Shown here: positions 61,678-64,000 of the stretch, one piece after another
Layout: every line of letters begins with the position of its first letter
Position numbering within the stretch: position 1 is the stretch's first letter
From: an uncultured Alphaproteobacteria bacterium
GTDB taxonomy: Bacteria; Pseudomonadota; Alphaproteobacteria; HIMB59; GCA-002718135
Direction: 5' to 3'
DNA: 64,000 nt
Assembly (NCBI GenBank): GCA_902628835.1
Contig: CACOPD010000001.1
Span: 233,347 to 297,346, forward strand
Notes under the pieces: generated by a model
The model's input: the letters and a program-made list of their open reading frames with translations, nothing else
What the model was told of the DNA's origin: nothing
The model's database searches: none
Translations under genes and position numbers: made by a program

Positions 61678-62124
61678 ATGAGAATTGCACTATTTGAACC
61701 TGACATACCCCAAAATGCAGGAAACATATTTAGACTAGGTGCATGTCTTGGATTACCAGTAGATATAATAGAACCAGCTGGTTTTTTGATCGATGATAAA
61801 AGACTCAAAAGAGCATCAATGGATTATTATGATTACCTAAAATTGAAAAAACATTTAAGCTGGGAAAAATTTTATGAATGGGCACAAAAAAATTCATATC
61901 GACTCATTCTTCTAACAACAAAAAGTAAAAAAAGTTTTTTTGATTATAAGTTCCAATCAAATGATATTATTTTATTTGGGAGAGAAAGTGCTGGGGCCCC
62001 AGATTATGTCCATAGCTCTGTCGACGAAAGGTTAACAATACCAATGATAAAGGGGCCTAGATCAATTAATCTTAGTAGTTCAGTTGCAATAGTAGCTAGT
62101 GAAATGTTACGCCAATTAAATTAA
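61678..62124 (+). CDS. trmL: tRNA (cytidine(34)-2'-O)-methyltransferase
   Basis: A SPOUT methyltransferase of 148 residues. Motifs: ALFEPDIPQNAGNIFRLGACLG near 4-25, LFGRESAGAPDYV near 100, and the knot-forming C-terminus IPMIKGPRSINLSSSVAIVASEMLRQL. It methylates the wobble nucleotide of leucine tRNAs. It is divergent from petA, and its end overlaps the pirin gene's end by four bases. Confidence 0.94.
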   Translation: MRIALFEPDIPQNAGNIFRLGACLGLPVDIIEPAGFLIDDKRLKRASMDYYDYLKLKKHLSWEKFYEWAQKNSYRLILLTTKSKKSFFDYKFQSNDIILFGRESAGAPDYVHSSVDERLTIPMIKGPRSINLSSSVAIVASEMLRQLN

Positions 62125-62978
62125 GCTAAGTTTCCCATCTTTCCTTCTTGATAGTCCATCATAGCTTGCTTGATTTCTCCCTCAGAATTAGCCACAAAAG
62201 GTCCATAACGTGCTACAGGTTCTTTGAGAGGCTTTCCGGCTAAAACTAGATAGGACCCCTTTTCAGATATTGACGTAAGTTGAATCTCATCACTTGACTG
62301 ATCAAAGTAAATCATATCACCTTTATTAGCGATTTTATCATTGTCGTTGAATTGTAACTGACCATCAATAATATAGATCATAAGATTTTGTTCTTTATTG
62401 ACATTAAACTTTGTCATATCTGGTTTTGAAAATTGAATATCAAATATTGATACAGGTGAATATGTTTGAATTTTAGATTTGGTTTTGTTTATTTCACCCA
62501 CAAGAACTTTAATTTCTATATTCTTATTTTCAGATACTGTTGGAATAGTGTTTCTTTTAATATGTTGATACCAAGGTTTAACTTTTTTATTTTTTTGAGG
62601 AAGGTTAACCCAGATTTGTAATCCTTGCATGATACCTCCACTCTTCTTAAATTTTTCTGTTACCAATTCAGAGTGAATTAAACCTGATCCAGTTGTCATC
62701 CATTGTACATCGCCAGTTTCAATTTCAGCTTGTCCACCAAATGAATCTCTGTGTTCTACCTCACCACCAAGCATGTAAGTAATTGCCTCAAATCCACAAT
62801 GAGGATGCGCAGGCACACCAGTTGCACCTCCTGGTTCATAATTAATTGGGCCAAAATGATCAAAAAGAAGGAATGGATCGTTTTCTCTCATACCGGGGAC
62901 AGGGAAAGCTCTCGTTACAGGTATCCCATCACCCTCGAAAGTCTTCATACACTCTTTAATTTCTTTTATTTTTCTCAT
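62121..62978 (-). CDS. Pirin-family protein
   Basis: A bicupin of 285 residues. Motifs: DPFLLFDHFGPINYEPGGATGVPAHPHCGFEAITYMLGGEVEHRDSFG near 35-82 with the metal ligands His58, His60, His102-type and Glu104-type positions, and HSELVTEKFKKSGGIMQGLQIWVNLP near 101. The C-terminal cupin ends with AGKPLKEPVARYGPFVANSEGEI. Pirins act as quercetinase-like dioxygenases or as regulators; the cellular role here is unknown. It is divergent from the 27-residue peptide gene. Confidence 0.9.
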   Translation of the reverse strand: MRKIKEIKECMKTFEGDGIPVTRAFPVPGMRENDPFLLFDHFGPINYEPGGATGVPAHPHCGFEAITYMLGGEVEHRDSFGGQAEIETGDVQWMTTGSGLIHSELVTEKFKKSGGIMQGLQIWVNLPQKNKKVKPWYQHIKRNTIPTVSENKNIEIKVLVGEINKTKSKIQTYSPVSIFDIQFSKPDMTKFNVNKEQNLMIYIIDGQLQFNDNDKIANKGDMIYFDQSSDEIQLTSISEKGSYLVLAGKPLKEPVARYGPFVANSEGEIKQAMMDYQEGKMGNLA

Positions 62979-63021
62979 AAATTTGTTTAAAAGTTATTCA
63001 TATATAGATATAGGTATCATT

Positions 63022-63105
63022 ATGAAAAATCAAAATCCAAATCCACCAAAGTGTGGTTGCAGTTGTAGCTGTTGCTGTACTTGTGAAGGTGGAGGGTGCT
63101 GTTAA
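63022..63105 (+). CDS. Small Cys-rich peptide, 27 residues (candidate metal-binding peptide)
   Basis: This small gene is not in the ORF track. An ATG at 63022 opens a 27-codon frame ending with TAA at 63105. The product begins MKNQNPNPPK, then has nine cysteines in seventeen residues, as CGCSCSCCCTCEGGGCC. There is an AGG-type site (ATAGGT) about eight bases upstream and a terminator-like hairpin that starts inside its last codons. AT-rich sequence upstream contains TATAGATAT as a possible -10. The Cys pattern suggests zinc or other soft-metal binding, like a miniature metallothionein. It lies between pirin and the end of znuA. Reality of the gene is likely but unproven. Confidence 0.6.
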   Translation: MKNQNPNPPKCGCSCSCCCTCEGGGCC

Positions 63106-63116
63106 TTAACACCCTC
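63092..63116 (+). terminator. Hairpin at the end of the Cys-rich peptide gene
   Basis: GAGGGTG and CACCCTC form a 7-bp stem around an 11-nt AT-rich segment that itself contains the palindrome GTTAATTAAC. It is followed by AATTTAAATTT rather than a pure T-run. It also lies downstream of the converging znuA end and may act in both directions. Confidence 0.6.
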
Positions 63117-63145: not shown

Positions 63146-64000
63146 CTAACAACCTTTAAGTTCATCTCCTAGATTCGTTATTAACTTAAAATAAAGATCT
63201 TTATTTATGTCAATATTGGCACCTAAAGGATCAAAAACACCCGTTTTGATATTCATGTCTTCAGCTATCGTTGTAATTATCTTTGGATTAAACTGAGGTT
63301 CAGAGAAGATACATTTTATTCCTCTATCCTTAATTACATCTTGAATATCAGCAATCTGTTTGGCACCAGGTAAAACATCCGTATTCAAAGTTAGCGCTCC
63401 AGCAGCTCTAACCCCAAATCTTTCTTCAAAGTATTGATAAGCGTCATGGAAGACAACAAACTTTGCGTCTTTATTTATTCCTTTTTCAATATCGTTAACT
63501 AGTTGATCTAGCGCTTGGATTGTTGCTTGTGCATTAGCTTCATATTTATTCTTATTTGCTGGATCCAAATCACCTAACTCATGTGCAATTTCATGTACCA
63601 TTTCTTTAGCATTCATTGGATCTAGCCAGATGTGAGCATCGAATTCACCATGTGCATGACCGTGGTGATCGTGTCCACTGTGATCGTCATGATCTTCATG
63701 ATCATCATGGTCGTCATGGTCATCGTGGTCGTTGTGATCATCGTGGTCGTCGTGATTATCGTGATCATCATGGTCGTCATGGTCATCATGATCATCATGG
63801 TCATCGTGGTCATCGTGGTCGTCGTGATCATCGTGATCATCGTGGTCATCGTGGTCGTCAAAAATTGATTCTTCTCTAAACTTTAATTTATTAATAGTTT
63901 CAACTTCCATGAACTCTACAACTTCTGCATTTTTAACAATTGACTCAAGAGGTCTCTCCATAAATGTTTCAATACTTTCACCAACCCAGAATATGATATC
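63146..64000 (-). CDS. znuA: Zinc ABC transporter substrate-binding protein ZnuA (5' end outside the window)
   Basis: A periplasmic zinc-binding protein of the cluster A-I family. The ORF track starts at an internal Met, but the frame stays open to base 64000 and encodes DIIFWVGESIETF before it, which fits the ZnuA motif, so the gene is partial here. Zn ligand regions include AHIWLDPMNAKEM, FVVFHDAYQYFEERFGV and IFSEPQFNPK. Between about residues 46 and 110 of the visible part lies an extreme His/Asp-rich loop, about twenty HDD units, then HSGHDHHGHAHGEFD. Such loops occur in ZnuA as zinc-capture or chaperone-like elements, but this one is unusually long and regular. Confidence 0.9.
   Translation of the reverse strand, partial: DIIFWVGESIETFMERPLESIVKNAEVVEFMEVETINKLKFREESIFDDHDDHDDHDDHDDHDDHDDHDDHDDHDDHDDHDNHDDHDDHNDHDDHDDHDDHEDHDDHSGHDHHGHAHGEFDAHIWLDPMNAKEMVHEIAHELGDLDPANKNKYEANAQATIQALDQLVNDIEKGINKDAKFVVFHDAYQYFEERFGVRAAGALTLNTDVLPGAKQIADIQDVIKDRGIKCIFSEPQFNPKIITTIAEDMNIKTGVFDPLGANIDINKDLYFKLITNLGDELKGC
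63646..63859 (-). repeat. Tandem 9-bp-like repeat encoding the HDD loop of ZnuA
   Basis: Codons CAC/CAT-GAT/GAC-GAT/GAC repeat about twenty times, with scattered changes (HDN, HND, HED). Synonymous codon mixing makes the DNA repeat imperfect and long open frames appear in three other frames across it; those are artefacts of the repeat. Confidence 0.88.

Follow-up and report, generated by a model that had tools for sequence, protein, structure and literature searches.

A conserved 27-residue peptide with nine cysteines in marine Alphaproteobacteria, most likely a miniature metal-binding protein

Introduction

The beta domain of vertebrate metallothioneins, part of a larger eukaryotic protein, holds nine cysteines with CxC/CxxC spacing in one cluster of about 30 residues, and the bacterial SmtA/BmtA proteins, which buffer zinc, are about 56 amino acids long. 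SmtA binds four zinc ions (PMC10612145). Another bacterial example, MymT of Mycobacterium tuberculosis, was found as an unannotated small Cys-rich ORF and acts as a Cu(I) sink that is needed for copper resistance (PMC7558416). Among fungi, the copper metallothioneins of Neurospora crassa and Agaricus bisporus have 26 amino acids and seven Cys in the arrangement X2-[CXC]-X5-[CXC]-X3-[CXC]-X2-C-X3 (PMC4755600). In the metallothionein of Yarrowia lipolytica (fungal family IV), which contains a CCC motif, all Cys join a Cu4Cys8-9 cluster (PMC13107397).

In this study we describe a small gene in a window of 64,000 nucleotides, by which we mean the whole 64 kb stretch of DNA that was analysed. Its coding features are:

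63022-63105, forward strand: peptide coding sequence, ATG to TAA, 27 amino acids plus TAA, seen in translation, conservation and pN/pS
63052-63102, forward strand: nine-Cys core CGCSCSCCCTCEGGGCC, a predicted metal-thiolate cluster, with Cys invariant in both families that carry it

The product, MKNQNPNPPKCGCSCSCCCTCEGGGCC, resembles the metallothioneins of N. crassa and A. bisporus in its length, its lack of histidine and aromatic residues, its CxC motifs and its Gly/Ser spacers. In contrast to their seven Cys it has nine, with a CCC motif and a terminal CC, and it is bacterial; no sequence homology was detected and the likeness is one of resemblance only. With the Y. lipolytica protein it shares a Cys-free N-terminal tail, a central CCC motif and eight to nine Cys, but that protein is longer and eukaryotic, and the similarity is by description, no homology having been detected. 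Like MymT it is a bacterial, overlooked small Cys-rich ORF; however, MymT (4.9 kDa) is about twice its size, and searches of Pfam, NCBIfam and PDB gave no sequence match. SmtA/BmtA are likewise bacterial and Cys-rich but longer, with His ligands and a zinc-finger fold, and the Pfam/NCBIfam scans returned no match to their family at E values up to 10. The number of Cys equals that of the vertebrate beta domain, where they belong to a single cluster domain. No relative of the peptide was found in Pfam, NCBIfam or PDB, the Pfam and NCBIfam scans being empty even at E up to 10, and it is unrecognised by any protein-family model searched. In the literature on metallothioneins in SAR11 and marine bacteria we found no description of it.

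Results

Composition of the peptide

The Cys residues occupy positions 11, 13, 15, 17, 18, 19, 21, 26 and 27, all within the last 17 residues, and make up 9 of 27 residues (33%), whereas the peptide has no histidine and no aromatic residue. This is the composition of a metallothionein: a small protein with about 20-33% Cys, CxC/CC motifs and few or no aromatic residues. The core follows the pattern CxCxCxCCCxC...CC, the N-terminus is Pro/Asn-rich and Cys-free, and a signal peptide is absent. Nine Cys in such a short frame are far beyond chance. Among the short ORFs of the window (30% GC) this one alone reaches at least five Cys per 17 residues, and 150 dinucleotide-preserving shuffles of the 64 kb window gave a maximum of seven Cys per 17 residues, once, and never nine. 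The first-pass annotation had described a Cys-rich ORF of 27 residues with nine Cys in the last 17 and a znuA gene a few dozen bases away. Translation of the forward strand reproduces the former exactly at 63022-63105, and the stop codon of a convergent znuA lies 40 bp downstream of the ORF.

Conservation and selection

In a whole-genome search the peptide turned up in the majority of genomes of the genus, and a second form of it in a different family of that order. When both forms were combined in one profile, 110 of the order's 162 genomes gave a match: 74 belong to the first family (f1) and 36 to the second (f2). The two family forms (…KCGCSCSCCCTCEGG[GD]CC and …DCGCSCSCCCTCGDGCC[Q/N/S]) differ outside the core, and f2 has the nine-Cys spacing of f1 minus one residue before the final CC, with the same spacer residues. 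None of the nine Cys varies among the distinct intact alleles (37 in f1, 17 in f2), where TGT and TGC interchange freely, and the Gly/Ser/Thr spacers of the core are nearly invariant in both families. Ser14 is encoded by AGY in f1 and by TCN in f2, which argues that the residue, not the codon, is what is kept. We obtained pS 0.43 and pN 0.029 in f1 (pN/pS 0.068; 37 distinct nucleotide alleles) and pS 0.40 and pN 0.030 in f2 (pN/pS 0.074; 17 distinct alleles). Strong purifying selection acts on the amino-acid sequence in two families, chiefly on the nine Cys and the Gly/Ser/Thr spacers.

Conserved Cys positions and purifying selection in relatives were what the first-pass annotation had proposed to look for, and both were found, with invariant Cys and a pN/pS of about 0.07. 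It had also held that frameshifts or lost Cys codons in close relatives would speak against the gene. Only one frameshifted copy was seen, in genome AG-337-F02 (L005, L052 and L208, all the same locus), where the last two Cys are lost and the frame is extended to 47 amino acids; it may reflect real decay or a sequencing/assembly error. Apart from this copy the Cys positions are conserved and selected as in a metallothionein. We consider the ORF almost certainly a genuine protein-coding gene.

The contrary reading is that there is no protein gene here, and that the ORF arose by chance or marks a structured RNA or regulatory element between convergent genes. In znuA-adjacent copies the 3′ end of the ORF does form a hairpin, and the ORF folds better than its dinucleotide shuffles (z -2.4). 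However, the predicted RNA folding is due to synonymous codon content, the mRNA folding no better than synonymous resamplings (mean z -0.53 and +0.12). The fold is not the same in the two families, most relatives lack the hairpin, and a search of Rfam gave no match above the cut-off. Neither double-sided compensatory pair changes nor stability in excess of that from coding, as a structured non-coding RNA would show, were found. Synonymous changes dominate, and this codon pattern already refutes the non-protein reading, whose probability we put close to nil.

Signals around the gene

Two elements flank or overlap the coding sequence:

63012-63015, forward strand: weak Shine-Dalgarno-like AGGT, retained where pirin flanks the gene, not where murJ does, and missing in f2
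63092-63116, no strand assigned: hairpin GAGGGTG/CACCCTC, formed by the last codons, the stop codon and the 3′ flank; MFE -12.3 kcal/mol, z -1.8

The plausible ribosome site claimed at first is present, as a modest AGGT, but it is not kept in murJ-flanked relatives or in f2. Similarly, the hairpin that was assigned to the gene as its own is real, but it consists in part of the last codons and is restricted to znuA-adjacent copies (mean MFE -18.9, versus about -4.6 to -5.8 in others). Codon 25 is GGG (Gly) in all 21 distinct znuA-adjacent sequences and in 0 of 29 elsewhere, where it is GAT (Asp) or another Gly codon. A clear, classical T-run after the hairpin is missing; the hairpin is probably a terminator common to the convergent peptide and znuA genes. 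A promoter scan gave no convincing promoter for the peptide, and a metal-responsive promoter element for it was not found. A perfect Zur-type palindrome, AATGTTATAATATAACATT, occurs between znuA and znuC only. The peptide gene has no Zur box upstream, as a member of a Zur regulon would, and the window contains none when up to 3 mismatches are allowed.

Genomic neighbourhood

In the window the peptide gene lies between two genes of the opposite strand:

62121-62978, reverse strand: pirin (Pfam Pirin, 6.3e-31), the divergent upstream neighbour in most genomes of the carrier genus of f1 (g1), replaced by murJ in others
63146-64000, reverse strand, continuing past the window edge: znuA (Pfam ZnuA, 2.9e-40), binding protein of a zinc ABC transporter, in which His and Asp form a long repeat

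Wherever the flanks of an f1 copy are long enough, the 3′ end of the zinc cluster faces the peptide gene in convergent orientation. Either znuA is directly adjacent, or a gene for an 84-amino-acid protein (h84)/WD40 or DUF1636 is adjacent and znuA follows 2.4-2.9 kb beyond. In one locus (L252) znuA is complete and is followed, on the opposite strand, by znuC-znuB and a gene for a Fur-family regulator. The full cluster of L253 comprises znuA, a COG0523-type GTPase, WD40 and the 84-amino-acid protein; znuC-znuB and a Zur-like regulator of the Fur family lie on its other side. The names COG0523, WD40, ZnuB/C and Fur are those we presume from reading the sequences and do not come from a profile search. 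Some COG0523 proteins have been linked to zinc homeostasis (PMC2770081).

Several side observations concern this cluster. In many g1 genomes a COG0523-WD40-84aa(-DUF1636) block stands between znuA and the peptide; in others, including the genome of the window, it is missing there and the peptide stays (its absence beside znuA in the window's clade rests on direct neighbour reading). The 84-amino-acid protein (MFNRKTQNVEKIRNLKHLISKKYKLPENTIISIAELSCHEPDCPPIETVITARNEDGS...) is found in L253, L254 and other g1 loci between the WD40/COG0523 genes and DUF1636 and is absent beside znuA in the window's clade. It has no Pfam/NCBIfam match and is probably an undescribed member of the zinc-limitation set. 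In ZnuA itself there is a very long repeat of low complexity, (HDD)n/(DHD)n (63640-63865, reverse strand, in the window; also in L252, L253 and L255), whose length varies among relatives and which is possibly a zinc-harvesting loop that expands by repeat slippage.

The surroundings differ in f2. There the peptide has as neighbours a proteasome-type protease and either a methyltransferase or an uncharacterised protein, with no metal-related gene nearby; znuA is on another contig or more than 10 kb away. A search for the protease neighbour in genomes that lack the peptide did not find it. In some f2 genomes (L031, L037, L043) a convergent gene for a secreted-looking, Tyr/Asn-rich protein of 93 amino acids (MKTYLTIFLILPYITFGFCYEPSPPWSKPSKP...), with no Pfam match, lies just downstream of the peptide.

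Distribution

When 85,462 species genomes were scanned with the pattern CGCSCxCCC[TA]C (Ser as AGY), 70 loci matched, all in uncultured alphaproteobacterial single-cell/MAG records and in ‘Pelagibacterales bacterium SAG-MED31’. Evenly drawn samples of the class (386 genomes) and the phylum (398 genomes) yielded no convincing profile match outside the order; weak partial matches (E 0.005-0.06), most within longer frames, were rejected as chance. Plasmids gave zero matches to the peptide. Viral contigs gave 120 matches to the degenerate pattern CGC[S]CxCCCxC, of which those translated were low-complexity poly-Cys frames, as are typical of antisense or shifted reading, and not homologues, and zero matches to a stricter pattern. 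All clear matches fall within two genera of a single marine order, contrary to the expectation of the first-pass annotation that the gene might be widespread. The carrier lineage is consistent with AEGEAN-169/HIMB59 (SAR11 subclade V), which has been described (PMC10308909).

Within the order the gene is patchy. Four other f1 genera gave no match even at E 10, a search that had no positive control of its own although the same profile finds matches elsewhere. The peptide is absent from an f2 genome of a single contig, 99% complete (G037), and from some intact znuA-murJ loci: in G062 and G066 the two genes are adjacent with no ORF remnant between them, so the absence there is real and not only a matter of incompleteness.

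Metal exporters

P1B-type heavy-metal ATPases were found in none of 20 genomes of the order, and a CDF exporter in no peptide carrier tested, with both searches positive in 14 of 14 control genomes. Among the 20 genomes CDF exporters occurred in one non-carrier genus only, plus one weak sub-threshold match in another. This apparent lack of standard metal exporters in the 20 genomes is unusual. Close relatives without the peptide also lack P1B and CDF exporters; the absence of exporters is therefore context and not a correlate of the peptide.

Discussion

Nine thiols in 17 residues, together with the absence of histidine, aromatic residues and a signal peptide, point to an intracellular metal-thiolate peptide. 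Judging from these sequence features we consider it likely that the gene product works in the cytosol as a metallothionein-like peptide whose thiolates buffer Cu(I) and/or Zn(II). As main ligand we judge Cu(I) somewhat likelier than Zn(II); buffering of Zn(II) next to the zinc-uptake locus follows closely. The Pro/Asn-rich N-terminus would be a disordered tail, and the C-terminal core of 17 residues may wrap a small cluster of soft metal ions, for which nine thiolates would suit Cu(I)4-6 or Zn(II)3. As a buffer or sink the peptide would hold free metal low. Since no P1B or CDF exporters were detected in the carriers tested, a metal sink would be useful, and such buffering would make sense in small genomes without detected P1B ATPases or CDF antiporters.

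A more specific role in zinc metabolism might be suggested by the position of the gene, and zinc storage or sensing had indeed been proposed because of the neighbouring znuA. The peptide might then be an accessory of the znu system that stores or passes on Zn(II) from ZnuABC or tunes Zur by cytosolic zinc buffering. Each f1 copy with enough flank adjoins the zinc cluster at its 3′ end and retains this position in the window's clade, which lacks the intervening genes there, and Zn3Cys9 is a classical cluster size. However, the gene is convergent with znuA and hence not in the znu operon; a conserved co-directional linkage with znu is seen in neither family, the gene being always convergent in f1 and unlinked in f2, on another contig or more than 10 kb from znuA. 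The only Zur box is that between znuA and znuC and not at the peptide, Cu(I) is at least as likely a ligand, and some genomes with znuA have no peptide (G062, G066). A zinc-specific function drawn from znuA adjacency is family-specific, unproven and weakly supported, and we consider it rather unlikely. The znuA-side position appears to be a genomic location particular to one family, in whose znuA-adjacent clade the two convergent genes share a hairpin as terminator; it does not look like an operon link.

Two other functions appear less probable still. The thiols could serve redox or thiol chemistry (disulfide, persulfide or Fe-S related) rather than metal storage, and nine of them in a tiny chain might work as a redox sink; yet a simple thiol pool would not need spacing and spacers nearly frozen across two families, and the dense CxC/CCC pattern is typical of metal-thiolate clusters, which would make such a role improbable. 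A RiPP precursor, with a Cys-rich core that undergoes modification and export (to serve, for instance, as a metallophore), would likewise be short, with a Cys-free N-terminus and a Cys-rich C-terminus, and the precursors of methanobactin and bufferins are small Cys-containing peptides. But the N-terminal part has only 9-10 residues, no maturase lies beside the peptide in either family, and the DUF692 enzyme (PF05114) of methanobactin/3-thiaglutamate type, a maturase that such a RiPP would require in the genome, was absent from seven carrier genomes while the control search was positive. We regard a RiPP precursor as very improbable.

The first-pass annotation had seen a real, overlooked gene and plausibly a miniature metallothionein, and this is well supported by purifying selection, invariant Cys and the lack of a database family. 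Most likely, as far as its sequence allows us to judge, the peptide is a miniature metal-binding protein. More tentatively, it might be the first representative of a family of bacterial metallothioneins, ultra-short and so far unrecognised, in which a minimal nine-thiolate cluster would be the main safeguard against metal excess in streamlined ocean bacteria without conventional metal exporters. Should it bind metal, the bacterial metallothioneins known to us would be about twice as large. It would also suggest that genome-streamlined cells, here abundant open-ocean bacteria in a setting where copper and zinc are scarce yet toxic, can swap exporters for a sink of 27 residues, and would show that very short Cys-rich genes of marine bacteria are real, yet missed by the family libraries searched.
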